A stretch of 44,461 nt of DNA from a virus. This document shows positions 1-44,461 of this stretch, piece after piece. The stretch spans positions 1 to 44,461 of the IMG/VR virus record IMGVR_UViG_3300009154_002012; one strand, written 5' to 3'. The translations under genes were made by a program, and so were the position numbers. The stretch's first letter is position 1. Every line of letters begins with the position of its first letter. The notes beneath the pieces were generated by a model that had not been told where the DNA came from, did no database searches, and saw nothing but the letters and a program-made list of their open reading frames with translations.

Positions 1-519
1 CTTTCATATGTTGTTGAACAATGGATGGAAGAAAACCAAATCGCAATCGAAACTGGTCTACGTGCAGAACTAACAGAAGACTTTATTGGTGGCTTGCGTA
101 ACCTATTCGCAGAACACTATATTGATGTTCCTGCCGAAAAGATTGACCTCGTTGATGAACTTGCTGGTAAAGTTGAAGAACTGGAAGGCAAACTTAACGA
201 AGAAATCGAGCGTGGTGTATCATATGCTAAGGCATTAGTTGAATCACGTAAGAGTGAAATTGCTCGTGAAGTTACTGAAGGACTCACTGCCACTCAAGCT
301 GAAAAAATCAAATCACTCGCAGAGGGTGTAGAATTCTCCACAGAGGACGAATACCAATCAAAGCTTGAAACAATCCGTGAAAATTACTTCCCATCTGGCA
401 CTAAGAAAGCCAATGCGTCACAACTACACGAACAGTTTGAAGAAGAGGACGAAAAGAAAGTCATTAATGACCCATTCGTTGCTGCTGTCTCACAAGCAAT
501 TTCTAAATCAAAATTTTAA
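1..519 (+). CDS. 22: Prohead core scaffold protein, gp22-like (5' end missing)
   Basis: This is the C-terminal part of the T4-type internal scaffold on which the prohead shell assembles; the prohead protease later degrades it. The frame is open from base 1 (residues LSYVVEQWMEEN...), so the gene starts upstream and the ATG at 25 is internal. The pattern W-M-E-E-N-x-x-A-I-E-x-G-L-R followed by F-I-x-G-L-x-x-L-F matches T4 gp22 as I remember it. The rest is acidic and probably alpha-helical or coiled-coil (LAGKVEELEGKL), as expected for a scaffold. It lies 24 bases before the major capsid gene, the classic 22-23 order. The identification rests on motif, composition and position. Confidence 0.85.
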   Translation, partial: LSYVVEQWMEENQIAIETGLRAELTEDFIGGLRNLFAEHYIDVPAEKIDLVDELAGKVEELEGKLNEEIERGVSYAKALVESRKSEIAREVTEGLTATQAEKIKSLAEGVEFSTEDEYQSKLETIRENYFPSGTKKANASQLHEQFEEEDEKKVINDPFVAAVSQAISKSKF

Positions 520-543: not shown

Positions 544-1872
544 ATGTATTTGTCCGAAGACCTACAAAGAAAATGGGAAGGCGTATTAGACCACGCTGAC
601 CTCCCAAAAATTAATGACCCATACAAACGTGCGGTTACTGCTGTTGTTTTAGAAAATCAAGCAACAGAAATGATGAAATCAGGAATGATTAACGAAGCTG
701 TGCCAACTAACTCTGCTGGTACAGGCGGTTTCGGTGGTGGTGCAACTGCAGCAGGTCCTGTTGCCGGTTTCGACCCAATCTTAATCAGTTTGGTTCGCCG
801 TTCATTACCTAACTTGATTGCATACGATATCTGCGGTGTTCAACCAATGACAGGTCCAACAGGCTTGATTTTCGCAATGCGTTCAGTTTATGGTTCACAA
901 ACACAATCAGCAACTAACGAAGCATTCTACAACGAAGCTAATACTGCTTTCTCTGGTGGTGCAACACAGACTCAAGGTACTCTTGCTACTGGTCTTGGTG
1001 GTTCTACTAACAACACTTTTGCGAACACAATCTTCTCTAACTCTCAGCCATATTTGACTGCAGCAGGCGAAGATAATCCGTTCCGTGAAATGGGTTTCTC
1101 AATTGAGAAAGTTACAGTAACTGCTAACACACGTGCTCTAAAAGCAGAATACTCAATCGAACTTGCACAAGACTTGAAAGCAGTTCACGGTTTAGATGCA
1201 GAAACAGAATTGTCAAACATTCTTTCTGCTGAAATTCTTGCTGAGATTAACCGTGAAGTTGTTCGTACAATCTACGGTACTGCTGTTACAGGCGCACAAA
1301 TCGGTACTACAACTGTTGGTACATTCGACTTAGACACTGACTCTAACGGTCGTTGGATGGTTGAAAAAGTTAAAGGTCTTGCATTCCAGATTGAACGTGA
1401 AGCTAACGCAATTGCTAAAGCTACACGTCGTGGTAAAGGTAATATCATGATTTGTTCTTCAGATGTTGCATCTGCATTGGCAATGGCTGGTATCCTTGAC
1501 TACAACTCTGCATTGACTTCTCAAGTTAACTTGACTGTTGATGATACAGGCAATACATTTGCTGGTACATTGTTCGGTCGTATCAAAGTTTACATTGATC
1601 CATATTTCATTGCAACTGGTACATCTGAGTTTGCCGTTATCGGTTACAAAGGTACTAACGCATATGATGCTGGTCTATTCTATTGCCCTTACGTTCCTCT
1701 ACAAATGGTTCGTGCAGTTGATACAACAACATTCCAACCAAAAATTGGTTTCAAGACTCGTTACGGCATGGTTGCTAACCCATTTGCACAAGGCACAACA
1801 CAAGGTGTTGGTAAATTTGCAGTATTGACAAACAACTACTATCGTGCGTTTGTTGTTAAGAACATCATGTAA
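544..1872 (+). CDS. 23: Major capsid protein, gp23-like
   Basis: This protein forms the hexamers of the T4-like icosahedral head. It has 442 residues, shorter than T4 gp23 (521). It follows the gp22 gene and has a strong ribosome binding site (AGGAG at 532-536). A prohead-protease type site, I49-N50-E51 followed by A52, lies at the end of the helical N-terminal peptide and fits the (L/I)-x-E rule, so mature protein should begin near A52. The segment GFDPILISLVRRSLPNLIAY and the following DICGVQPMTGPTG are typical of the family. Codon use is optimised (many GGT, GCA and AAC codons), as expected for the most abundant virion protein. A strong terminator follows the gene. Confidence 0.96.
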   Translation: MYLSEDLQRKWEGVLDHADLPKINDPYKRAVTAVVLENQATEMMKSGMINEAVPTNSAGTGGFGGGATAAGPVAGFDPILISLVRRSLPNLIAYDICGVQPMTGPTGLIFAMRSVYGSQTQSATNEAFYNEANTAFSGGATQTQGTLATGLGGSTNNTFANTIFSNSQPYLTAAGEDNPFREMGFSIEKVTVTANTRALKAEYSIELAQDLKAVHGLDAETELSNILSAEILAEINREVVRTIYGTAVTGAQIGTTTVGTFDLDTDSNGRWMVEKVKGLAFQIEREANAIAKATRRGKGNIMICSSDVASALAMAGILDYNSALTSQVNLTVDDTGNTFAGTLFGRIKVYIDPYFIATGTSEFAVIGYKGTNAYDAGLFYCPYVPLQMVRAVDTTTFQPKIGFKTRYGMVANPFAQGTTQGVGKFAVLTNNYYRAFVVKNIM

Positions 1873-32574: not shown

Positions 32575-32604
32575 CATAATACGGCAGTTGTGATAGTATA
32601 AATA
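32571..32604 (+). promoter_or_regulatory. Overlapping host-type and late promoters
   Basis: TTGACA (32571-32576), 17-bp spacer and TAGTAT (32594-32599, with TGA before it) overlap an exact late box TATAAATA (32597-32604). The following gene could be read early by host sigma and late by gp55. AGGAG (32620-32624) precedes its ATG. Confidence 0.7.
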
Positions 32605-32630: not shown

Positions 32631-33890
32631 ATGGCAGACTCACCAAAAGAAGGCGAAGCGGCTCAAGCATTATTTTGTGCTATTGCAGATTACTTAGGTT
32701 ATGCAAAGGTTCAAAAAGAATTCGATTTAACTAAACTTCCGACTTATAACGATTTCAAAAAACATTATGGTAAAGTCATAGATGATTGTTATGCTAAAAC
32801 GAACATGCCGCAGATTACTTTAAAACAGATTGAATCTTTTTTAAATACTGCTGATGGCTGGTATGAATCATCACTTAATATTGCTAAGAAATTGATACAT
32901 GATATTAAAACTATCAGTACAAAATTTTCTAAAATACAAGCACCTAAATGGCAAGATATAATGTATGTTCGTGGTGGCGCAAAAGAAAAAGGTAGGTCCT
33001 CAAACGCTATGGAAAATGTAGCTTCACTTTTTGATGTTGCGAACAAAAATGATGGTGGTTATTTTGGTGATATTAATAAATGGAGCCCTGCTGACATATA
33101 CTTTGTGTCGAAGAAAGCTGAAACTACTATTTTAAGTGAAATTACTTTGGCTACTGGTAAGTTAGCAAAGTCATATAATTTTGTCAATCTTAATAAACTA
33201 ATAGGTACTTTAGTTGATAGTGGTGATTTATTGCCACTTTCCTTAAAGAAGGCGGAACATGAAGTTCATCTAGTAAAAGTAAACTTCAAAAGGTCCGATG
33301 AGGAAAAATATTTAGGTGATATTAAGTATTATGGAATTAGTGATTGGAGTAAAAAATACACCAGAGATAAACCAGTGACAAGAGATATAAAAATATACTT
33401 TAGTAGAGATAAGAAAGATAAACTTAAAATTCGCCATGACCCATATAGTTCAAATTACGGAGTAAATAAAGCCGTAAAATGTGAGATTGAAGTTACTGGT
33501 GCAGGTGGACGTGGTGGTTCAGTTGTAGGCATTCCTTTAATAAGTCAATTAATATCAAAAGTTGATAAGAAATTTGGTGATGAATTAACTAAAGCTTTCA
33601 ATGATGGTATTAGAAAATATTCGATTGAATTGGAGAAGACCAATAAAGAGTTTAAAGTTAAATCTGGAACAAAATTAAAAAGTCCACAAAAAGAAATGTA
33701 TGATGATGAGAGAGCAACTTTAAGTGCGTTGTATATTTCAAATGCAATTATGCCAGTAATATATAAATGGTTTAAGAGTAATGAATCAGATAAAAAAAGA
33801 GTTCTTCTAAATGAAAAAGTGGTACAAAAGTTCATCGAATATACTTCTAGTAGAACAGAGAAATCTGGTAAATTTGTGATTGCAAAATAA
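32631..33890 (+). CDS. Unknown protein, possible PD-(D/E)XK-type nuclease
   Basis: I do not recognise a named family for this 419-residue protein. Some features recall restriction-endonuclease-like folds: a helix with E8/E10 near the N-terminus (GEAAQALFCAIADYLG), NKWSPADIYFV giving a possible catalytic Asp, then LLPLSLKKAEHEVHLVKVN, where S-L-K-K would be the (D/E/S)xK strand. A C-terminal alpha-rich part follows. G+C falls to about 26-28% in its second half, lower than its neighbours. It follows a methyltransferase gene directly, with its own promoters. The nuclease idea is inference from these patterns. Confidence 0.4.
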   Translation: MADSPKEGEAAQALFCAIADYLGYAKVQKEFDLTKLPTYNDFKKHYGKVIDDCYAKTNMPQITLKQIESFLNTADGWYESSLNIAKKLIHDIKTISTKFSKIQAPKWQDIMYVRGGAKEKGRSSNAMENVASLFDVANKNDGGYFGDINKWSPADIYFVSKKAETTILSEITLATGKLAKSYNFVNLNKLIGTLVDSGDLLPLSLKKAEHEVHLVKVNFKRSDEEKYLGDIKYYGISDWSKKYTRDKPVTRDIKIYFSRDKKDKLKIRHDPYSSNYGVNKAVKCEIEVTGAGGRGGSVVGIPLISQLISKVDKKFGDELTKAFNDGIRKYSIELEKTNKEFKVKSGTKLKSPQKEMYDDERATLSALYISNAIMPVIYKWFKSNESDKKRVLLNEKVVQKFIEYTSSRTEKSGKFVIAK

Positions 33891-33899
33891 AGAACAACC

Positions 33900-35132
33900 A
33901 TGAACTTCACACAATTTTTAACCGAAGCAAAAAAAGAAGGTGCAAATCTTCATCTAGAACACCTTGAGGATGAGATTCTAAATCGTGGTGTTGCTGGCGC
34001 CAGAGATGCAATTAATTTTCTACAGGCATTGAGAGATATGCTTGCTGGCCACTCATCGTCAAAAGTAAATACCACAACAAAGTGGGATGGCTCACCAGCA
34101 ATCTTTTGCGGTATTAATCCAGACAATGGTAAATTCTTTGTTGGTACAAAGGGTGTATTCAATGCAAATGCAAAGTTGAATTATACTGATGCAGACATTG
34201 ATAAGAATCATCCAGGTGAAGGTCTTAATGCAAAACTTAAAGTTGCACTCCGTTATCTTCCAAAACTTGGCATCAAAGGTGTATTGCAAGGTGATATGAT
34301 GTTTGCAAAGGGTGACCTGTCAGAGAAGACACTTGATGGTGAAGACTACATTACATTTCAACCAAACACATTAATCTATGCTGTGCCCTCTGATTCTAAA
34401 CTTGCAAAGACTATGCAGGCTGCACAGCTGGGTGTTGTCTTTCATACTTCATACACAGGTAAAACATTTGCTGATATGAAGGCATCATTCAATATTGATA
34501 TTAAGAATTTAACACCAACTAAAGATGTTTGGTTCCGTGATGCATATTTTACTGATGCATCTGGTACTGCATCATTCACAGAAGAAGAAACAAAAAAAAT
34601 TACCTATATCCTATCTGATATCGGTAGAGTATTCAAACAAACAAACTCAATGTCTATTGGTAGAATTTCTGGTAATGATACAGTTAGAGAATACATTAAG
34701 ACATTCAACAATACCAAAGTGCGTGAAGGGCAAAAGATTACTAATACAGCCGCACACACAAGAGAGTTGATGAAATGGGTTGAAGAAAAACTAAACAAAG
34801 ATATTGTCTCTGCAAAGATGGAGAAGACAAAGAGAGATAAGACTATGATTAAGAATGAAATCATGCGTACTCTCCGTAACAGTGCAAACGATTTGAAAAA
34901 CATATTTGATATGCAGAACAGCATGGTAGATGCCAAGAATATGATTATCAAAAAGTTACAACAGATGAAACAAGTTACAAGTACATTTGTACAAACAGAA
35001 GACGGTTTCAAAGTGACAAATCCAGAAGGTTTTGTTGCAGTTGATAAATTAACAGGCAACGCAGTTAAGTTGGTTGACAGACTTGAATTTAGTCATTTGA
35101 ATTTCACCGCACAGAAAAATTGGAGTAAATAA
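33900..35132 (+). CDS. Nucleotidyltransferase/ligase-like protein with capsid-targeting N-terminus (DUF6267-like)
   Basis: This 410-residue protein has ligase-superfamily-like motifs in order: K61-W-D63-G64-S (motif I KxDG, the lysine that would carry AMP), FFVGTKG (79-85), GVLQGDMMF (127-135), E376-G-F-V and V389-K390-L (motifs IV/V-like). The first ten residues, MNFTQFLTEA, resemble the T4 internal-protein targeting peptide MKTYQEFIAEA, with an L-T-E site after which the prohead protease could cut. That suggests packaging inside the head. I believe such proteins fall in DUF6267; the enzymatic activity is inferred. No clear ribosome binding site is seen. Confidence 0.6.
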   Translation: MNFTQFLTEAKKEGANLHLEHLEDEILNRGVAGARDAINFLQALRDMLAGHSSSKVNTTTKWDGSPAIFCGINPDNGKFFVGTKGVFNANAKLNYTDADIDKNHPGEGLNAKLKVALRYLPKLGIKGVLQGDMMFAKGDLSEKTLDGEDYITFQPNTLIYAVPSDSKLAKTMQAAQLGVVFHTSYTGKTFADMKASFNIDIKNLTPTKDVWFRDAYFTDASGTASFTEEETKKITYILSDIGRVFKQTNSMSIGRISGNDTVREYIKTFNNTKVREGQKITNTAAHTRELMKWVEEKLNKDIVSAKMEKTKRDKTMIKNEIMRTLRNSANDLKNIFDMQNSMVDAKNMIIKKLQQMKQVTSTFVQTEDGFKVTNPEGFVAVDKLTGNAVKLVDRLEFSHLNFTAQKNWSK

Positions 35133-35588: not shown

Positions 35589-35603
35589 TTATTGGAGTTT
35601 GTT

Positions 35604-36458
35604 ATGGAAGATATAGTGGTTGGTTGTATCACAGGATACAACTTTGATAAAATTAGACCTTGGGTAAATTCATTAGACACTTGTGGATTTACTGGCACAA
35701 AGGCTATGATTTGTTATGATGTAGATTATGACACAGTTGACGAATTGGTGAAACGCAAATACACCATCCTTGCTTTTGGTAAGGACGAAGAAAAAAGAAG
35801 ATTCAAATACAAAGAGGATTTCTCAATTGTTGTTGAGAGATTTTTGCACATGTGGTATCTTCTAAAGAGATTCAAAGGGCAATATCGTTACATCATTACT
35901 ACAGATGTTAAAGATGTTGTCTTTCAAACAAACCCATCAACTTGGCTAGAGAACAACATCGGCGACAAAGAAATTAATGTTGCATGTGAATCTATTCGCT
36001 ACAAAGATGAAGAATGGGGTAATCACAATCTTATGAAAGCATTTGGTGCTCTCATACATGACCACAACAAAGACAATTTAATTTACAATGCAGGCACAGT
36101 ATCTGGTAAGTTTGATACTATGGTTGATTTGTTCCTAAACATCTATATGCTATGTAACAGTACCTCTCATTACACTGAGGGTGGTGGTGGACCAGACCAA
36201 GCCGCACTAAACATTTTGCTGAATATGAAATCATACAAAGACATTACCAATTTTGCAATGTCAGATGATGGATATGCCGCACAATTAGGCACAACAGGTC
36301 CTCAGATTGCAGGCAAATATGGGTCTAAGCTAGTTGACAAATCTCCAATTTTAGTAGATAATACAGTATGTACAAGTGACGGAACTCCTTTTGCAATCGT
36401 ACATCAATATGACAGAGTACCTGAATGGAAAAAAATTATAGAGGCAAAATATGAGTGA
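35604..36458 (+). CDS. Glycosyltransferase-like protein (GT-A fold)
   Basis: This 284-residue protein is the first gene of the sugar operon. It shows a GT-A-type beginning (IVVGCITGYNFDKIRPWVNSL) and an acidic metal/donor motif T-D-V-K-D in YRYIITTDVKDVVF, with E-G-G-G-G-P-D-Q-A-A later, as in many hexosyl and pentosyl transferases. I start at ATG 35604, six bases after GGAG (35594-35597), instead of an upstream TTG. The sugar and acceptor cannot be told. It overlaps the methyltransferase by eight bases. Confidence 0.65.
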   Translation: MEDIVVGCITGYNFDKIRPWVNSLDTCGFTGTKAMICYDVDYDTVDELVKRKYTILAFGKDEEKRRFKYKEDFSIVVERFLHMWYLLKRFKGQYRYIITTDVKDVVFQTNPSTWLENNIGDKEINVACESIRYKDEEWGNHNLMKAFGALIHDHNKDNLIYNAGTVSGKFDTMVDLFLNIYMLCNSTSHYTEGGGGPDQAALNILLNMKSYKDITNFAMSDDGYAAQLGTTGPQIAGKYGSKLVDKSPILVDNTVCTSDGTPFAIVHQYDRVPEWKKIIEAKYE

Positions 36459-37101
36459 GATTCTAACAATCAATACTGTAGATAATATAATGAGAAGTAC
36501 AGGCGCACCAAAACCTGGTTCTTCGGATCCTTGGGATCATTTGCCTCCAGACCAATGGGTAGAAAAACAAATTGAATGGGGTGAGAAGAACATATCAGGT
36601 TCTGGTCTTGTAGAACATATCAATAAACTAAAAGGTGATTTGATTGGTGTTGAGATTGGTGTTTGTCTTGGTGTTACTACAGAACTCTATGCAAAAGAAA
36701 TTCCTAATCTAAAGAAACTATATGCAGTAGACCACTATCCATCATTCATTGATTGGAACGGAACTGTTGTTAGTGAAGACAGACAAGAGGCTATGAAACA
36801 ACATGCAGCTAATCGTTTGCAACCATACAAAGACAAGATTGAATTTGTTTATACATCAAGTGTAGAATTTGTACAGACACTAGAAGATGAAAGTTTAGAT
36901 TTCATTTTCATTGATGGTGACCATTCATATGAAGGTGCATTAAGAGACTTTAAGAATTTCTATCCGAAAGTTAAAAAGGGTGGCATCTTTGCAGGTCACG
37001 ACCTTTACATTCCGACTGTAGAGAAAGCACTGATGGAGTTTTTCGGTAATATGGATATAGAATCTGTATCTCAAAATGCTTGGTTCAAGATTAAGGCTTG
37101 A
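36451..37101 (+). CDS. SAM-dependent methyltransferase (class I, family 24-like)
   Basis: This is a Rossmann-fold methyltransferase, probably acting on a sugar or small molecule. Motif I is GVEIGVCLGVTTELYAKE followed by LYAVDHYPSF (acidic residue at the end of beta 2); DFIFIDGDHSYEGALRDF is the characteristic metal-linked D-G-D-H-x-Y of the Methyltransf_24/TylF-like group. Length is 216 residues. Its place in the sugar operon suggests O-methylation of a sugar. The start overlaps the upstream stop (ATGAGTGA). Confidence 0.82.
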   Translation: MSEILTINTVDNIMRSTGAPKPGSSDPWDHLPPDQWVEKQIEWGEKNISGSGLVEHINKLKGDLIGVEIGVCLGVTTELYAKEIPNLKKLYAVDHYPSFIDWNGTVVSEDRQEAMKQHAANRLQPYKDKIEFVYTSSVEFVQTLEDESLDFIFIDGDHSYEGALRDFKNFYPKVKKGGIFAGHDLYIPTVEKALMEFFGNMDIESVSQNAWFKIKA

Positions 37102-37102
37102 T

Positions 37103-38095
37103 ATGAAGAAGTATAAAAAGATAATTGTTTGGGGTGCAAAATTAGACAGTGGTCACACACACGGTTTTATCCATGAGGCTTGTGTACGTGCTGCAAAGTC
37201 TATGGGTATTGATGTATACTGGTTAGACAACAGAGACAATGTTGAAAACTCATTCTTTGATAATGCAATCGTCATTACAGAACAATGGTTGGCATTTCAA
37301 AATGGATTCAGTAACAATCTTCCATTGAACAAGACTGCATGTTATTTTGTACATTATCTTGGCAACAGAGGACCAGTTGAAGGTAATCCAGGCGCATCAA
37401 TGTATCTTGGTAAAGTAGGTAAACTGATTGACTTTAGATTTACTGCTGAACATGGTTGGGGTTCTAATGGTGTAGAAGACAAGAACTACAATTACAAATT
37501 TGAAAAAGAAAAGTATGATGCATTTAATGATGTATCATTTTATGAACATGGCACAGACTATGATAATTTCTACACTGTATGGGCTACAGACCTGTTACCA
37601 GATGAAATTAATTTTGAAGACAGATTTAAACCATTAGAGAACAGAGCATTTTTCTGTGGTACGATCCGAGAAGACAATCAAGAAATGTTCATGCCATTTA
37701 TTAAGAGATGTGAAGATAGTAAAATACCTTTTCTATACAACACACCATGGCAGAATCCATTACCAACAGAAGTTGTTAGAAAATATGTTGTGGAGTCTTT
37801 GTTGCCACTTGATTGCAGACCAAAGAATCATCTTGTGAATGGTTATATTGCTTGTCGTGCAATTAAGAATGTTAGTTATGGCGCATTAGGTCTTACTAAC
37901 TCAAAAACAATTTATGATTTCTTTGATGGTGAAATTGCATATGCACCAGACTCAGGTGACTTGTTTGATGTTGCATTAGAGATGCAAAGAAATCCAAAGA
38001 CTAAAGACTTGATTCTAAATCAAATGAAGAAGATAAAAGAGCATCATACATATATTAATAGAATTAACGATATTATTAGAGCTGCGGAGATTTGA
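37103..38095 (+). CDS. Glycosyltransferase-like protein (GT-B type), uncertain
   Basis: This 330-residue product looks like a nucleotide-sugar transferase of GT-B architecture. The start has IIVWGAKLDSGHTHGF, then IVITEQWLAF and a middle segment RAFFCGTIREDNQEMFMPFIKRC. A later VSYGALGLTNSKTIYDFF with a charged helix resembles the donor-binding part of glycan transferases. No exact family is recognised. I start at 37103, two bases after the upstream stop, since the longer frame begins within the previous gene. AAGG upstream could serve as ribosome binding site. Confidence 0.5.
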   Translation: MKKYKKIIVWGAKLDSGHTHGFIHEACVRAAKSMGIDVYWLDNRDNVENSFFDNAIVITEQWLAFQNGFSNNLPLNKTACYFVHYLGNRGPVEGNPGASMYLGKVGKLIDFRFTAEHGWGSNGVEDKNYNYKFEKEKYDAFNDVSFYEHGTDYDNFYTVWATDLLPDEINFEDRFKPLENRAFFCGTIREDNQEMFMPFIKRCEDSKIPFLYNTPWQNPLPTEVVRKYVVESLLPLDCRPKNHLVNGYIACRAIKNVSYGALGLTNSKTIYDFFDGEIAYAPDSGDLFDVALEMQRNPKTKDLILNQMKKIKEHHTYINRINDIIRAAEI

Positions 38096-38096
38096 T

Positions 38097-38963
38097 ATGA
38101 GAATTTTGATTACTGGCCACATGGGTTTTGTGGGCAAATATTTTATGCGTAAGTATGCTGAACATGACATTGTGGGTATTGATATCAAAGAAGGCAACGA
38201 CTGCCGAGATTTTTTCAAAACAAATGATAGTTATTTTGACCTAGTAATTCACCTTGCAGCAATTGTTGGTGGTCGTCAAACGATTGAAGGCAACCCACTT
38301 TCAGTCGCAACAGACTTGGCGATTGATTCAGATATGATTCAATGGGCATTAAAAACAAAACCAGGTCGAGTAGTTTATTTCTCCTCATCAGCTGCATATC
38401 CAATTGAACTACAAGACTTGGAAAGAAAAAATAGATTAGTTGAATCTTTTATTGATTTGAAGAAAACAAAAATGCCTGACTTGACATATGGTTGGGCAAA
38501 ACTAACTGGTGAATTCTGTTTACAATTCTTAGAAGAAGCTGGTGTCAGAGTACATGTGTTCAGACCATTCAGTGGGTACGGAACAGACCAAGACTTAGAC
38601 TATCCTTTCCCATCATACATTCATCGTGCAAAGAATTTAATGAACCCATTTGATATTTGGGGTGATGGGCACCAAGTACGTGACTTCATTCACATGCAAG
38701 ATATTGTAGATGCAGTTGATGAAGCAATCAAACAAGACATTCAAGGTCCTGTAAATCTTGGTTCTGGTATCGCAACATCATTTAATGAATTGCAACAAAT
38801 CGTTTGCGGTATTCAAGGATACAATCCAGAAGTTAATCATATCAAAACTGCACCAGTTGGTGTGATGTATCGTGTTTGTCATCCAGATAAAATGTTATCG
38901 TTCTACAAACCAAAAATTAATATCTACGATGGTATCTCTAGAGCATTAAAAGGTGTCATATGA
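38097..38963 (+). CDS. NAD-dependent epimerase/dehydratase (WcaG/GDP-fucose synthase-like)
   Basis: This is a short-chain-type sugar-nucleotide enzyme. NAD(P)-binding is ITGHMGFVGKYF, the catalytic Y-x-x-x-K is Y-G-W-A-K in the middle (TYGWAKLTGEF), and S-S-A-A-Y-P precedes it. The best functional guess is the epimerase/reductase step after GDP-mannose dehydratase, as in GDP-L-fucose synthesis, because a Gmd gene is two genes downstream. Length 288 is a little shorter than bacterial WcaG (about 320). It follows its upstream gene with one base between and overlaps the next by four. Confidence 0.8.
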   Translation: MRILITGHMGFVGKYFMRKYAEHDIVGIDIKEGNDCRDFFKTNDSYFDLVIHLAAIVGGRQTIEGNPLSVATDLAIDSDMIQWALKTKPGRVVYFSSSAAYPIELQDLERKNRLVESFIDLKKTKMPDLTYGWAKLTGEFCLQFLEEAGVRVHVFRPFSGYGTDQDLDYPFPSYIHRAKNLMNPFDIWGDGHQVRDFIHMQDIVDAVDEAIKQDIQGPVNLGSGIATSFNELQQIVCGIQGYNPEVNHIKTAPVGVMYRVCHPDKMLSFYKPKINIYDGISRALKGVI

Positions 38964-39721
38964 AAATTGTAATTGTAACTGGTGGATTCGACCCATTACA
39001 TTCAGGTCATATTGCCTATATTAATGCAGCTAGAGCTCTTGGTGATTCTTTAATTATTGGAGTTAATTCTGATGAATGGTTACGTAGAAAGAAAGGGCAA
39101 GAATTTATGCCTTGGGAAGAACGTGCAACTATCATTTCAGCACTTCAAAATGTTGACAGAGTTATTAACTTTGATGACAGTGATAACAGCGCCAAAGATG
39201 TTATTAGAAAAGTAAGAGCAATACATCCAACGGCTCATATAATTTTTGCCAACGGCGGAGATAGAACAAAAGAAAATATTCCAGAAATGGACTTACTTAA
39301 AGAAATGCTTCAGTTAGAATTTGTCTTTGGTGTTGGTGGTGAAAACAAAATGAATTCATCATCATGGATTCTAAAAGAATGGAAAAACCCTAAGACTGAA
39401 AGACAATGGGGACACTATCGTGTTTTACATGAAACACCAACAGTCAAAGTCAAAGAGTTAGTAGTAGAACCAGGCAAATCTTTGAGTATGCAGAAACATT
39501 TTTTGAGAAATGAACACTGGCATATTTCAGAAGGTGTTGCAACTATTACGCAAGAGAGTTCCCATTCTGCAAGAAAGTATCAGTTAGAGGCTCAGAAAAG
39601 TTTAGAGATACCAGTTGGCACATGGCATCAACTATCTAATGAACAAGAAACTGAATTGAAAATTATTGAGATACAGTATGGCGAAAAGTGTATTGAAGAA
39701 GATATTGAAAGAAGAAAATGA
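38960..39721 (+). CDS. Fusion of cytidylyltransferase-like and cupin domains
   Basis: Two domains lie in one 253-residue chain. Residues 1-130 are a nucleotidyltransferase: VTGGFDPLHSGHIAYINAA (H-x-G-H) and GVNSDEWLRRKKG. Residues about 140-253 are a cupin like the C-terminal domain of type II mannose-6-phosphate isomerase/guanylyltransferase: QWGHYRVLHETPTVKVKELVVEPGKSLSMQKHFLRNEHWHISEG, with histidine metal ligands. No linker anomaly or frameshift is seen. It probably activates or isomerises a sugar phosphate for the operon's nucleotide sugar. Confidence 0.78.
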   Translation: MKIVIVTGGFDPLHSGHIAYINAARALGDSLIIGVNSDEWLRRKKGQEFMPWEERATIISALQNVDRVINFDDSDNSAKDVIRKVRAIHPTAHIIFANGGDRTKENIPEMDLLKEMLQLEFVFGVGGENKMNSSSWILKEWKNPKTERQWGHYRVLHETPTVKVKELVVEPGKSLSMQKHFLRNEHWHISEGVATITQESSHSARKYQLEAQKSLEIPVGTWHQLSNEQETELKIIEIQYGEKCIEEDIERRK

Positions 39722-40269
39722 TTATTGATATAGGATCAGGTCCATGGCCTAAACCAGATGCACACATTCGTATGGACTTCAACGATTGGCCTGGTGTGAA
39801 TTGTAAACATGATTTGTTAGAGACACCTTATCCATTTGGTGATGAAGTGTTTTCAAAGGCATACATGGGTGATGTAATTGAACACATCTACATTTTCGAT
39901 ATAGATAGAGTACTAACAGAAGTACATCGTATTCTGAAGAAAGATGCAGTCTTTGAAGTTGTTGTGCCTGATGCACGATGGATTTTTGAAAGAGTTGTTA
40001 AGGGTGATTGGAAAGAAAAAACAAATGCTGGTTGGTTGAATCAATCAGATGATGATTGGAAAAATGCAATGTCATATTTGTTTGGTGGTTTCCATAACAA
40101 AGAAGAATACAAAATGCCAGGCATGGGGCATGTAAATGCATTTGATACAGACTCACTTAAAAAGTTGTTAGAGAAGAATGGTTTTGTAAATTGTCGTAGA
40201 GTACCTGATACTCGTAATCCAGAACCTGCGGCTGGTTCAATATTGAAAATGATTTGTGAAAAAGGTTAA
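39718..40269 (+). CDS. SAM-dependent methyltransferase (type 11-like)
   Basis: This short class I methyltransferase (183 residues) opens directly with motif I (IIDIGSGPWPKPDAHIRMDFN), lacks an N-terminal cap, and has AYMGDVIEHIYIFDIDRVLTEVHRILKKDAVFEVVVP typical of type 11 enzymes (D-V-I-E-H as motif post I). It likely methylates a sugar or lipid intermediate made in this operon, but the substrate is not known. It overlaps its upstream neighbour by four bases. Confidence 0.75.
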   Translation: MIIDIGSGPWPKPDAHIRMDFNDWPGVNCKHDLLETPYPFGDEVFSKAYMGDVIEHIYIFDIDRVLTEVHRILKKDAVFEVVVPDARWIFERVVKGDWKEKTNAGWLNQSDDDWKNAMSYLFGGFHNKEEYKMPGMGHVNAFDTDSLKKLLEKNGFVNCRRVPDTRNPEPAAGSILKMICEKG

Positions 40270-40271
40270 TT

Positions 40272-41240
40272 ATGAAAAAGACAGCATTTGTAACAGGCAT
40301 CACTGGTCAAGATGGACCATATCTTGCAAAGTTTTTACTGAGTAAAGGATATCATGTATATGGATTGATGAAACGATATTCAAATCCTAATACAGACAAT
40401 CTAAAATTTCTAAACATTGAAAACGATATTGAGTTAGTGACTGGTGATATCACTGATGAAAATTCTATGAGTCATTTAGTCAAGTCAATCAGACCGGATG
40501 AATTCTATAATCTTGCAGCACAAAGTTTTGTTGGTTCTAGTTGGGACTTGAATAAGTTAACAACAGAAGTAAATGCAATCGGTCCTCTAAATATTCTCAA
40601 TTCGATTAGATTACATAATCCAGAAACACGATTCTATCAGGCAAGCACAAGTGAGATGTATGGTAATGCAAAAGACAATCATCAAGATGAAACAACTCCA
40701 TTCCATCCAAGAAGTCCATATGGTGTCGCAAAACTATATGCGTATTGGATTACAGTAAACTTCCGTGAGAGCTACAGTCTACACGCTTCTAATGGTATTT
40801 TGTTTAACCATGAATCACCCATCCGCGGAAAAGAATTTGTCACAAGAAAGATTACGGATGGTGTTGCACGAATAAAATTAGGTCTTGCAGATAAGATTAC
40901 ACTTGGTAATTTAGATTCTAAACGTGATTGGGGATTTGCAGGTGATTTCGTTGAGGCTATGTGGATGATGACACAACAAAAAGAACCTGGTGATTATGTT
41001 GTATCTACAAATGAATGTCATTCGATTTATGAATTCTTAGACTGTGCATTTAATCATGTCGGTATCACAGATTGGAAACAATATATTGCAAGTGACCCAA
41101 GATTCAAACGTCCTGCTGAATTGAATGTTCTTCGTGGTAACAATACCAAAGCGATAGAGACTTTAGGATGGCAAAACAAAACATCGTTTGAAGAATTAGT
41201 TAAGATGATGGTTGATGCAGATATAGAACGATTGAAATGA
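40272..41240 (+). CDS. gmd: GDP-mannose 4,6-dehydratase
   Basis: Gmd turns GDP-mannose into GDP-4-keto-6-deoxymannose, the branch point to GDP-fucose, GDP-rhamnose and related sugars. NADP binding is FVTGITGQDGPYLAKFLL; the sugar-binding block is ASTSEMYGN; catalytic Y-G-V-A-K lies in HPRSPYGVAKLYAYW; FNHESPIRGKEFVTRKI and RDWGFAGDFVEAMW are Gmd hallmarks. Length is 322 residues, slightly shorter than bacterial Gmd (about 350-370). It is the clearest enzyme of this cluster and defines its chemistry. Confidence 0.95.
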   Translation: MKKTAFVTGITGQDGPYLAKFLLSKGYHVYGLMKRYSNPNTDNLKFLNIENDIELVTGDITDENSMSHLVKSIRPDEFYNLAAQSFVGSSWDLNKLTTEVNAIGPLNILNSIRLHNPETRFYQASTSEMYGNAKDNHQDETTPFHPRSPYGVAKLYAYWITVNFRESYSLHASNGILFNHESPIRGKEFVTRKITDGVARIKLGLADKITLGNLDSKRDWGFAGDFVEAMWMMTQQKEPGDYVVSTNECHSIYEFLDCAFNHVGITDWKQYIASDPRFKRPAELNVLRGNNTKAIETLGWQNKTSFEELVKMMVDADIERLK

Positions 41241-42199
41241 AAAAAATATTATACGTAGTTCACAGATACGCACCTTATCCTGGTGGTTCAGAAAACCATA
41301 CAAGAGATTTGGCTGAAGAAACTCTAAGTCGAGGTCATCAAGTTGCTGTATTTACAGGTGAACACAAAGGTGATTGGAATGGAGTTCATGTAACAAGTGA
41401 CACTGCCATATTTAACTATCCATGGGACTTAGTTGTTGTTCATGGTGGTGATGTTGGTATTCAAAATCTTGTTCTTGTAAACATCAAAAATTTACCATAT
41501 CCAGTATTGTATTACATAATCAAACCATCAGAAAGTGCTGTGTGTTTGCAAGCACTGAATGACGCAAAATGGGTTGGTTGTGGAACACCACAAGACTGGG
41601 ATCATGTAATGAAACATGGTGCATTGAGTAGAAGTGTTAAGATTAATCTAAGTGTAAATGAAGCACATGCGATTGGTCGACCAGGTTTCCGTGAGAGATA
41701 TGGCATCAAAACAAAGAATATGTTCCTATCATGCGGTGGATATTGGCCACATAAAGGCATGAAAGAGTTAGCAAAATTGTTTAGTATACTGAACATTCCT
41801 GATACAACATTAGTTTTGACTGGTTATGATAATAGACATGATTTGATGCCAGAAGAATCTGAGTTTATTAAACCTCTAATGCTTGAAGACAAGGCAGAAG
41901 TTGCTGATGCAATGAAAGAAGCAGACCTGTATATCATGCACTCATTTGAAGAAGGCTTCGGTCTTGTTCTTGTAGAATCTATGCTCAATCATACACCATG
42001 GGTTGCAAGAGATATTGCTGGTGCAACCATGATGAAAGAATTTGGTAAAACCTATACGAATGACAAAGAATTGTCTGACTATCTTGTCAATTTTAAACGA
42101 CCAGATGACGAAAAACTTGATAATGCATACGAATATGCCGTTCATAATCACACCACAAAGAGTTCTGTAGACGCAATTTTAAAGCTGATAAATTACTAA
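41237..42199 (+). CDS. Glycosyltransferase group 1 (GT4-like)
   Basis: This is a GT-B retaining transferase of the group 1 type. VVHRYAPYPGGSENHTRDLAEE is the usual N-terminal signature of GT4 enzymes; the conserved donor-site E-x7-E appears as E-E-G-F-G-L-V-L-V-E near residue 237. It lies last in the operon with a four-base overlap to gmd, so it probably adds the GDP-derived 6-deoxysugar to a glycan on the virion or host surface. Length is 320 residues. Confidence 0.88.
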   Translation: MKKILYVVHRYAPYPGGSENHTRDLAEETLSRGHQVAVFTGEHKGDWNGVHVTSDTAIFNYPWDLVVVHGGDVGIQNLVLVNIKNLPYPVLYYIIKPSESAVCLQALNDAKWVGCGTPQDWDHVMKHGALSRSVKINLSVNEAHAIGRPGFRERYGIKTKNMFLSCGGYWPHKGMKELAKLFSILNIPDTTLVLTGYDNRHDLMPEESEFIKPLMLEDKAEVADAMKEADLYIMHSFEEGFGLVLVESMLNHTPWVARDIAGATMMKEFGKTYTNDKELSDYLVNFKRPDDEKLDNAYEYAVHNHTTKSSVDAILKLINY

Positions 42200-42233
42200 A
42201 TAGAGCATTAATCAACTGCTGTAGAGGCGGAGA

Positions 42234-44461
42234 ATGAAATTTAGAGAATTTATTAGCGAAAATAAAGAGGTGCATCATGTCATGGCGTTTGGCCGCATGT
42301 CTCCTCCTACTACAGGGCATGAAGTCCTTGTAAACAAAGTTAAAGAAGTCGCTGACAAAGTTGGCGGCAATCACAGCGTAGTCCTATCCCACACACAAGA
42401 TAAAGATAAGAATCCACTATCTTCTGCTGATAAACTCAAACACGCAAAAAGATTCTTCCCAAAAACAAACCTCTCTACATCCAGTAAAGAGTCACCTACA
42501 TTTCTTTCTCATGCAGAGAAGTTACACAAACAAGGTGTAACTCATTTACACATGGTCGCAGGTTCTGACCGTGTTCCAGAATACAAAAAGAAACTTGCAC
42601 AGTACAATGGTACAGGCGAAGGCAAGTTATATAACTTCAAAAAGATAACAGTACATTCCGCAGGTGAAAGAGACCCTGATGCAGAAGGTACTACAGGCAT
42701 GTCTGCATCTAAAATGCGTAGTCATGCATCTTCTGGTAATTTCAAAGAATTCAAAAAAGGTGTACCTGCACATGTACCTGAACATCATGCAAAAGAAATG
42801 TTTGCTGATGTGCGTAAAGGTATGCAAATCAAAGAGAGTATCAATGAAGAATTTGAATCTCTTTTGTTTGAAGGTGTACATGACAAAGCAATATTTAAAG
42901 TAGTATTTCTAGCAGGCGGACCAGGTTCTGGTAAAGACTATGTGCTAGATAATACACTTGCAGGCCATGGAATGACAGAGATGAATTCTGATAAGGCACT
43001 TGAGTTCTTAATGGACAAACAAGGTCTTGATAAGACTATGCCTGCATCAGAAGAAGAAAAAAGAAATCTCACCCGTGGTAAAGCAAAGAGTATGACTGAA
43101 TTGCGCCAACGACTTGCGATTCTAGGTCGCAATGGTTTGATTATCAATGGCACAGGTGATGACATAGAAAAAGTCACAAAGATTAAAGAGAAACTAGAAG
43201 AAGTTGGTTATGAATCATCAATGGTTCTAGTTAATACTGCTGATGAAGTATCTAAACAACGAAACATAGAACGTGGTCAACGTGGTGGTCGTACAGTACC
43301 AGAAAACATTCGTAAAGAAAAATGGGACAACGTACAACAAGGACGCCCTGAGTTTGCAAAGTTGTTTGGTGATAACTACATGGAGTTTGATAACTCTGAA
43401 GATTTAAGAAATGCACCACCTGATGTAGTCAAAGCTAAAAAAGATGAGATGCTTCAGATGTACACAAAGGTGCAACAGTTCGTAGCACAACCACCAAGTA
43501 ATCCTGTTGCATCAGCCTGGATTGCTATGGAGATGCAAAAGAAAGATACACTACCAATATCAAAAGATGGCGCAGAGAAGACTGCACATCCAGATTCAGG
43601 TGCGGCTAAAGAAGCTCGCAGAATGGGTTTGAAGTATTATGGTTTTGGTAGATATGGTAAAGATGGTAAGACAACACATAGAGTTGTGCATGATAAACTC
43701 GTTGAGGTTGAAAAAGAAGCACATAAAGAACCTAATGTTCCAACCTCAGGAAGTTCAACGAAGAAATCAGAACCTAAAAAAGTCAATGAAGAATTTGAGT
43801 CTTTCTTATCTGAATCAGAAGATGAATTATTTACAGAAGAAAAGAAGGTCAAACTATTGCGTGGTAATGATGGTAAAACAAGAGTGTTCTTGCTTCGCCG
43901 TTCAGCTGCAAAAGAATCCCATCTGCGTGGTGGTGAAGTAATGAAACATCCAAAAGGTTATGTAATTAAAATAAAAGAGGAGAATGACAATGTTGAGACT
44001 ACTAAAGAGCTTCTTGAGCAACGCCAAGGAACCAAAACCATTAGAGACATCCTTACCGAAGGCAGAATTGCCAACAGAGGAATTGAAAGTGGAAACTACA
44101 ACTTCACCCCAGCCGCAGACAGCATCGGTGTCAACAGTACAGAACAAGGTCAAGGTGAATCCAAACCGTACAAAGAAAAAATCACCATCAACCAAATCCG
44201 CACCAAGCAAAAAGCAGCCCTCCAAAACCACCAAGAAAGTATCGACAAAGGCATAGAGTCTGGTCTTTCAATGGCGAGTTCTGGTGAAAACTTAGCACGC
44301 CCATCTGGTGAAAAGATTGACTTGAAAAGAAAAGGCAAGTCAACTAGTATTCCAGAATCAATTGGTGCTGGTGGTGAAGATGCAACATCAACTTCAGATA
44401 ATAATGAATTAGAGTTGAAAAGAAAAGGCATCAATCTAAAAACATTCAAAGCAAACAGGTC
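42234..44461 (+). CDS. Multidomain protein: nucleotidyltransferase, P-loop kinase and more, 3' end missing
   Basis: The frame stays open to the window end (742 complete codons plus). Domain 1 (about 13-200) is a phage nucleotidyltransferase: FGRMSPPTTGHEVLV (T-x-G-H) and GMSASKMRSH. Domain 2 (about 222-510) is a P-loop kinase-like part with GGPGSGK (228-234). The N-terminus MKFREFISEN resembles the T4 capsid-targeting peptide. Related linkers N-E-E-F-E-S-L-L-F-E (204-213) and N-E-E-F-E-S-F-L-S-E (518-527) separate the domains, each containing an (L/I)-x-E site. A Lys/Gly-rich tail follows. Packaging and processing by the prohead protease is inference. Confidence 0.7.
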   Translation, partial: MKFREFISENKEVHHVMAFGRMSPPTTGHEVLVNKVKEVADKVGGNHSVVLSHTQDKDKNPLSSADKLKHAKRFFPKTNLSTSSKESPTFLSHAEKLHKQGVTHLHMVAGSDRVPEYKKKLAQYNGTGEGKLYNFKKITVHSAGERDPDAEGTTGMSASKMRSHASSGNFKEFKKGVPAHVPEHHAKEMFADVRKGMQIKESINEEFESLLFEGVHDKAIFKVVFLAGGPGSGKDYVLDNTLAGHGMTEMNSDKALEFLMDKQGLDKTMPASEEEKRNLTRGKAKSMTELRQRLAILGRNGLIINGTGDDIEKVTKIKEKLEEVGYESSMVLVNTADEVSKQRNIERGQRGGRTVPENIRKEKWDNVQQGRPEFAKLFGDNYMEFDNSEDLRNAPPDVVKAKKDEMLQMYTKVQQFVAQPPSNPVASAWIAMEMQKKDTLPISKDGAEKTAHPDSGAAKEARRMGLKYYGFGRYGKDGKTTHRVVHDKLVEVEKEAHKEPNVPTSGSSTKKSEPKKVNEEFESFLSESEDELFTEEKKVKLLRGNDGKTRVFLLRRSAAKESHLRGGEVMKHPKGYVIKIKEENDNVETTKELLEQRQGTKTIRDILTEGRIANRGIESGNYNFTPAADSIGVNSTEQGQGESKPYKEKITINQIRTKQKAALQNHQESIDKGIESGLSMASSGENLARPSGEKIDLKRKGKSTSIPESIGAGGEDATSTSDNNELELKRKGINLKTFKANR
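43984..44256 (+). CDS. Possible gene embedded in another frame of the large protein
   Basis: A 90-residue frame begins MTMLRLLKSFLSNAKEPK and continues as a proline-, serine- and lysine-rich tail. It has a strong ribosome binding site (AGAGGAG, 43975-43981) and third-codon A/T preference like other genes, whereas the host frame in this stretch uses unusual C-ending codons. G+C is about 50% in 44041-44140, higher than nearby. Either a truly overlapping gene or a chance by-product of low-complexity coding; I favour the former slightly. Confidence 0.42.
   Translation: MTMLRLLKSFLSNAKEPKPLETSLPKAELPTEELKVETTTSPQPQTASVSTVQNKVKVNPNRTKKKSPSTKSAPSKKQPSKTTKKVSTKA

Follow-up and report, generated by a model that had tools for sequence, protein, structure and literature searches.

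Phage T4 draws proteins into its prohead by means of a short N-terminal capsid-targeting sequence (CTS) of ~10 to 19 residues, exemplified by the leader MKTYQEFIAE of the internal protein IPIII, in which residues 4 and 7 serve targeting and residues 8 and 10 serve cutting by the protease gp21 (PMC9026906). The latter cleaves at L/I-x-E (PMC9026906). In cyanophages, homologues of nicotinamide mononucleotide adenylyltransferase (NMNAT)/cytidylyltransferase enzymes have been reported by mass spectrometry in purified virions of S-SM1 (PMC3037559), S-CREM2 (PMC10665884), S-SCSM1 (PMC9602691), and S-SZBM1 (PMC9146016). The accounts of these virion proteomes point to carry-over in CsCl preparations as another possible source of such enzymes.

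Here, we analyzed a 44,461-nt (44.5 kb) stretch of viral DNA, hereafter the window, which derives from a T4-like phage with relatives among the marine phages currently assigned to Kyanoviridae. This fragment includes gp23, preceded by the final part of the scaffold gene, along with genes for SbcC/D-type subunits, a DNA polymerase, and a helicase. A modular polyprotein gene (42234 to 44461, plus strand; 742 codons) extends from 42234 beyond the window end, which truncates it at 44459. A 95%-identical relative contig encodes 746 aa, so the window version, cut by the contig end, is short of only ~4 residues. Consistently with the domains named by the first-pass annotation, residues 10 to 200 (42261 to 42833, plus strand) form a nucleotidyltransferase (NTase) matching the phage cytidyltransferase families PHROG 3041/395 with E values down to 1e-65; its structure model adopts the NadD/NMNAT fold, and a sequence search for a solved relative returned none. 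Residues 214 to 433 (42873 to 43532, plus strand) form a P-loop kinase of the Zeta_toxin/PNK/adenylate-kinase type (PF06414, E 5e-13; 49.3 bits versus a cut-off of 22.3), for which adenylate kinase and PNK rank alongside zeta in Foldseek. Two small modules follow, GLKYYGFGRYGKDGKTTHRVVHDKLV at residues ~456 to 492 (43599 to 43709, plus strand), which precedes the NTase in syn9 gp184, and KVKLLRGNDGKTRVFLLRRSAAKE...GYVIKIKEE at ~540 to 582 (43851 to 43979, plus strand); beyond the second, the chain is a tail modeled mostly with low confidence in the whole-protein prediction. Scans with Pfam, PHROGs, and NCBIfam found no peptidase domain in the polyprotein. As a guess from the models, the kinase might act in nucleotide or RNA-end phosphorylation and the NMNAT-like part might have an NAD-related role. 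The pair could also be read as a NadR-like enzyme of the cytoplasm, with NMN adenylyltransferase and ribosylnicotinamide kinase activities in one bifunctional protein and no connection to the head, given that one chain joins an NMNAT fold to a P-loop kinase and yields a very weak NadR match (E 0.003, far under the cut-off). This reading is barely credible, however, because the kinase groups with zeta, PNK, and adenylate kinase types, the two domains are encoded by separate genes ~50 kb apart in the phage Melnitz, and the head is indicated by the CTS leaders, by the late promoter of homologues, and by the detection of NMNAT homologues in virions. Assignment to the NadR family proper was rejected (TIGR01526, 16.7 bits versus a cut-off of 341).

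The polyprotein starts with the CTS-like candidate propeptide MKFREFISE (42234 to 42260, plus strand), with a predicted cut after E9. Residues F3, F6, I/L7, and E9 align with Y4, F7, I8, and E10 of MKTYQEFIAE and are invariant or conservatively replaced in relatives. Two internal elements resemble this leader: NEEFESLLFE ahead of the kinase (residues 204 to 213; 42843 to 42872, plus strand; predicted cut E213|G214) and NEEFESFLSE behind it (residues 518 to 527; 43785 to 43814, plus strand; predicted cut E527|S528), the latter kept in part of the homologues. The leader (as MKFREFISEN), both elements, and the tripeptide L607-T-E (44052 to 44060, plus strand) lie where the first-pass annotation had placed them. 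Its proposal of L607-T-E as a further cleavage site did not hold, since this tripeptide is not conserved as L/I-x-E in the homologue alignment. The pattern [FY]xx[F/L][I/L]xE matches the window protein at exactly three places (MKFREFISE, FESLLFE before the kinase, and FESFLSE after it), and the broader [FY]xx[FLIMY][LIVM]xE is found at residues 3 (MK-FREFISE-N), 207 (NEE-FESLLFE-GVHD), and 521 (NEE-FESFLSE-SE), all of which are module starts. Across 15 homologues, which are not independent of one another, the broader pattern has 35 occurrences versus 2.3 (maximum 8) in shuffled sequences. The shuffles and the placement of the motif rule out a chance origin. Bare [L/I]xE was dropped as evidence: there are 12 occurrences in the window protein, two of them within the kinase, and only the longer motif is therefore informative. 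The presence of bare L/I-x-E in the folded kinase also means that accessibility must decide cutting. In the whole-protein model, the three elements are short helices (residues 3 to 9, 205 to 214, and 519 to 525), and the internal two sit in low-confidence linkers.

Conservation across 14 non-redundant homologues follows the predicted cut sites. The leader has fixed residues at F3, F6, and E9, only I or L at position 7, and no constraint at position 8. The linker before the kinase is fixed at F207, L211, E213, and G214, and residue 212 varies more than any other in this stretch (2.56 bits). The residue preceding the glutamate is thus the most variable of each site (2.2 to 2.6 bits). A fixed L/I and E around a free middle residue is the pattern expected from selection by a protease that needs L/I-x-E. 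Of the cleavage elements that the first-pass annotation had proposed between the domains, the one on the NTase side of the kinase is strongly supported by comparison; the element behind the kinase is partly conserved and is absent in some relatives (L009 and L014).

The kinase also exists as a stand-alone protein, and its N terminus then carries a leader of its own, as in HTVC008M gp129 (MIPFILKE|GLYDPGIFK), Melnitz (MKTFAELQE|GVYDPNIFK), L120 (MITE|GVND), and L225 (MLRFKTFINE|GVND). The internal NEEFESLLFE|GVHDKAIFK of the window is thus the counterpart of a leader that was once N-terminal. When viral contigs and genomes were scanned, 90 usable kinase sequences were obtained, 50 N-terminal and 40 internal, with a query that contained the leader and may slightly bias the relatives retained. 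Whether stand-alone or internal, 89 of these 90 kinases bear [L/I/V/M]xE|G directly ahead of the conserved core, with L (64), I (23), V (1), or M (1) at P3 and 15 kinds of residue at P2. The kinase tree contains seven changes between the N-terminal and internal states, at least five of which are forced by well-supported branches. Other partners accompany the internal kinase in L110, L119, and L127, and in Atu_ph07 a different N-terminal part does so. By eye, this part of the Atu_ph07 protein (L060:1748-4084) resembles an ADP-ribosyltransferase, a class represented among head-packaged proteins by T4 Alt; the protein starts with MKWNDLNE|A and has EVTE|G ahead of the kinase. A genome scan for a bacterial kinase outgroup lacking a prohead protease gave only phage-like contigs in metagenome-assembled genomes; all kinase relatives found, these contigs included, look phage-derived, so that the set holds no such outgroup. 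The NTase of HTVC008M, gp130, is without a clean leader (MKTLKELLRKK).

Two readings of this site compete with cleavage. In the first, L-x-E-G would be conserved for kinase structure or activity and its likeness to a protease site would be coincidental. No sequence in the kinase alignment departs from E10 or G11, and VxDxxIFK just behind them is also conserved. The kinase model, obtained from a separate 38-row alignment because the whole-protein fold from a narrow alignment gave a poor kinase, nevertheless has a mean pLDDT of 90.6, and only residues 2 to 11, i.e., the leader plus the invariant E-G, fall below 50 while the remainder stands at 90+. Disorder of the site in an otherwise good model renders conservation for the kinase fold unlikely. 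Moreover, the same F/L-I/L-x-E pattern heads unrelated families, namely the NTase, the DUF6267 protein, the downstream DUF6321 protein, and the T4 internal proteins. Altogether, we regard a structural explanation as very improbable. In the second, only the N-terminal tag would be removed, and the internal elements would persist as uncut relics or extra scaffold-binding tags within one fused multifunctional enzyme. T4 fusion proteins packaged via a CTS can stay functional (PMC9026906), and bare L/I-x-E motifs within folds presumably stay uncut, both of which suit this proposal. We nonetheless judge it unlikely: a disordered [LIVM]xE|G site with a free P2, held in 89 of 90 kinases, fits protease-site selection better than relic drift, and the equivalent residues end the leader in stand-alone kinases.

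The polyprotein combines several domains of enzymatic or effector type in one chain, and these are reshuffled among relatives. An extra module lies between NTase and kinase in L015, and an additional one follows the kinase in L020, L021, and L027, headed by DEEFESFISE or DDEFENLISE in the first two. In L028, a DUF6934-like module (a weak match, below the cut-off) has VNEEFESL on either side, and three near-identical copies of the element flank the insertion. The inserted modules of L015, L020, L021, and L028 are thus preceded or flanked by a CTS-like element. The small module behind the kinase of the window sits before the NTase in syn9, and S-PM2 and five contigs carry a fusion of DUF6267 with the NTase, which in the contigs starts with MINFNSYLTE or similar sequences. 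Both internal elements of the window share 16 identical nucleotides (TCAATGAAGAATTTGA), which, together with the three copies in L028, suggests a possible additional role of the elements as handles for recombination. That the repeats are mainly such handles for module swapping, with no part in targeting or cleavage, is a highly improbable explanation, even though the shared nucleotides, the L028 copies, and the changing position of modules agree with it. Distant relatives retain just L/I, E, and G while the DNA and the P2 residue diverge, so it is the protein pattern that is selected, and a handle role is in any case compatible with cleavage.

At the start of the window, the C-terminal part of a gp22-like scaffold protein (1 to 519, plus strand), recognized by its position before gp23 and its similarity to annotated gp22, is followed by the major capsid protein gp23 (544 to 1872, plus strand), which has its own candidate prohead-protease site, MINE|AVPTN. 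Equivalent L/I-x-E|A sites occur in the N-terminal region of gp23 from G001 (QLTE|ATPTN), Melnitz (FLSE|AAPTN), and S-SZBM1 (ILTE|AAPTM), and they apparently obey the same protease rule as the elements of the polyprotein. The gp21 gene itself lies off the window contig. A Peptidase_S77 gene is present in the relatives G001, G002, and G004 and adjoins gp22 and gp23 in G001. Upstream of the polyprotein gene, the degenerate promoter box CTAAATA (42196 to 42202, plus strand) occupies the place of the T4-type late promoter in several homologues, either TATAAATA ~40 nt upstream of the start (L020, L021, L024, and L027) or CATAAATA at the upstream promoter place (five other loci). A perfect T4-type late promoter element, TATAAATA, was also located at 32597 to 32604 (plus strand), upstream of the genes that start at 32631 and 33900.

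To survey other CTS-like starts, a strict N-terminal pattern, slightly narrower than the three-element motif, was run on five sequences. In T4, it matched IPII and IPIII alone, and in the window only the polyprotein and DUF6267 genes. Its matches in the relative G001 (214 kb) were the homologues of these two genes, the gene that follows the polyprotein, a gene close to that of the portal, and one match that is probably false. HTVC008M gave no match to the strict pattern; shorter LxE starts are visible there in gp126, gp127, and gp129. The DUF6267 protein of the window (33900 to 35132, plus strand) starts with MNFTQFLTE|A, and, judged by eye, its KWDG and late EGFV...KLV motifs suggest that it is a covalent nucleotidyltransferase from the ligase superfamily. 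The interval from this gene to the polyprotein (35592 to 42199) holds genes of glycosyltransferase, NAD-sugar epimerase/dehydratase, methyltransferase, and mannose-phosphate-isomerase type, assigned mostly by eye. In relatives, the gene that would lie just past the window end starts with MKSFKSFIAE, MKSFKAFIAE, MKSFKAFITE, or MKSFTQFINE (L002:5238, L003:5391, L009:5397, and L027:5742), even closer to the T4 CTS than the leader of the polyprotein. A 4-nt overlap with the polyprotein gene is seen in many relatives, and the encoded protein has a DUF6321 module at the end with variable modules ahead. In L027 (5742 to 6266), a HicA-toxin domain (PF07927) stands behind the CTS-like leader, possibly an RNase-type toxin domain packaged in the head. 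Another CTS-like leader, MTQKFSQFITE, starts a RimK-like ATP-grasp protein of Melnitz (L049:82-1131). Finally, the proteins encoded at 175735 to 178571 of G001 (L042) and by S-SCSM1 genes 89 and 92 (L238) are modular, with repeated linkers (KEEVELDE/KEEVELEE) that each include LxE; since the S-SCSM1 counterparts bear a virion label, similar processing may occur.

Homologues of the NTase in cyanophages start in the same manner, i.e., MKSFLQFLKE|AAES in the NMNAT enzyme of S-SCSM1, MKKFSAFLSE|A in syn9, MKSFTSFFTE|A in P-TIM68, and MKLFNQFFKE|A in S-CRM01. A 40 kb portion of S-SCSM1 showed no significant enrichment of CTS starts among virion-labeled proteins (1/9 versus 2/48 others, p 0.41), owing to the fact that most virion proteins there do not depend on a CTS. 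A leader match by itself is thus not a sufficient predictor of virion proteins. For the polyprotein, the proposal of a capsid-targeting start gains from the match to the T4 CTS, the conserved leader, the late promoter in several homologues, and the NMNAT homologues in virions.

Collectively, these findings are best explained by a modular, CTS-headed, late-expressed polyprotein that is packaged in the head and cut by the prohead protease into separate enzymes, a reading to which we assign a probability of about 0.75. As far as sequence can tell, head packaging is well supported and internal cleavage between NTase and kinase is strongly implied. We infer that MKFREFISE would act as a capsid-targeting sequence that draws the polyprotein into the prohead core, as for the T4 internal proteins, and that a gp21-type protease would cut after [L/I]xE during head maturation. 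The cut after E9 would remove the tag, that after E213 would separate an NMNAT-like enzyme of ~22.7 kDa from a ~35-kDa kinase that keeps the small module behind it, and that after E527, in the window version, would release a third product of ~24 kDa. Peptides predicted from the internal cuts are ESINEEFESLLFE (monoisotopic mass, 1584.72) and VNEEFESFLSE (1328.58), together with a start at GVHDK. The freed enzymes would be ejected with the DNA, so that a single gene would probably supply the newly infected cell with several distinct enzymes. The internal elements would be former N-terminal leaders of separate head-packaged proteins, retained after gene fusion or module shuffling.

By a narrower balance of odds, slightly on the favorable side, T4-like phages of aquatic bacteria may possess a general cassette system in which CTS/protease-led effector enzymes are shuffled into polyproteins, processed into separate enzymes, and injected at time zero. 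Such a system, if true, would be a prokaryotic-virus counterpart of polyprotein processing inside a capsid. The polyprotein reading predicts exact cut positions, offers a sequence rule for spotting proteins injected by T4-like phages, many of which are now "hypothetical" genes of abundant aquatic phages, and suggests that phages may evolve the injected set through shuffling of self-contained cassettes. It would also account for the recurrence of NMNAT-like enzymes in cyanophage virion proteomes, for which the published discussions leave packaging and contamination undecided. The parts are known, and the combination is new; in the open-licence literature, we found no paper on head-packaged enzyme polyproteins with repeated CTS elements.

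The window protein resembles several described systems in part. T4 IPII and IPIII (MKTYQEFIAE|A) share with it a short N-terminal leader with an aromatic residue, F, I/L, and E at equal spacing and an L/I-x-E end for gp21, but they are single small proteins with one leader, whereas that of the window recurs between enzyme domains of one chain. The cyanophage T4-GC190 cytidylyltransferase/NMNAT-like proteins contain a homologous NTase module behind a CTS-like start (syn9, P-TIM68, S-CRM01, and S-SCSM1) and are reported in virions. They differ in being ~290 to 410 aa long and devoid of a kinase, and the passages that describe them make no link to a CTS or gp21. The kinase and NTase modules of the window are likewise those of HTVC008M gp129/gp130 (a Pelagibacter phage) and of Melnitz (a Methylophilales phage), where the kinase starts with a leader and LxE|G. 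In both phages, however, the two modules are separate genes, and the fused state is therefore not universal. As predicted for the window protein, the T4 core proteins gp22 and gp67 are gp21 substrates at several L/I-x-E sites, and Alt is one at both ends; T4 core proteins are destroyed to free space, whereas the cuts in the window protein would release intact enzymes. Lastly, the polyvalent proteins of phages and conjugative elements (Iyer et al. 2017) also string several shuffled, effector-type domains along one chain, with proteolytic release proposed. In some of their members, release relies on embedded peptidases, whereas the protease predicted for the window protein is the prohead protease of the phage, acting on CTS-like elements.
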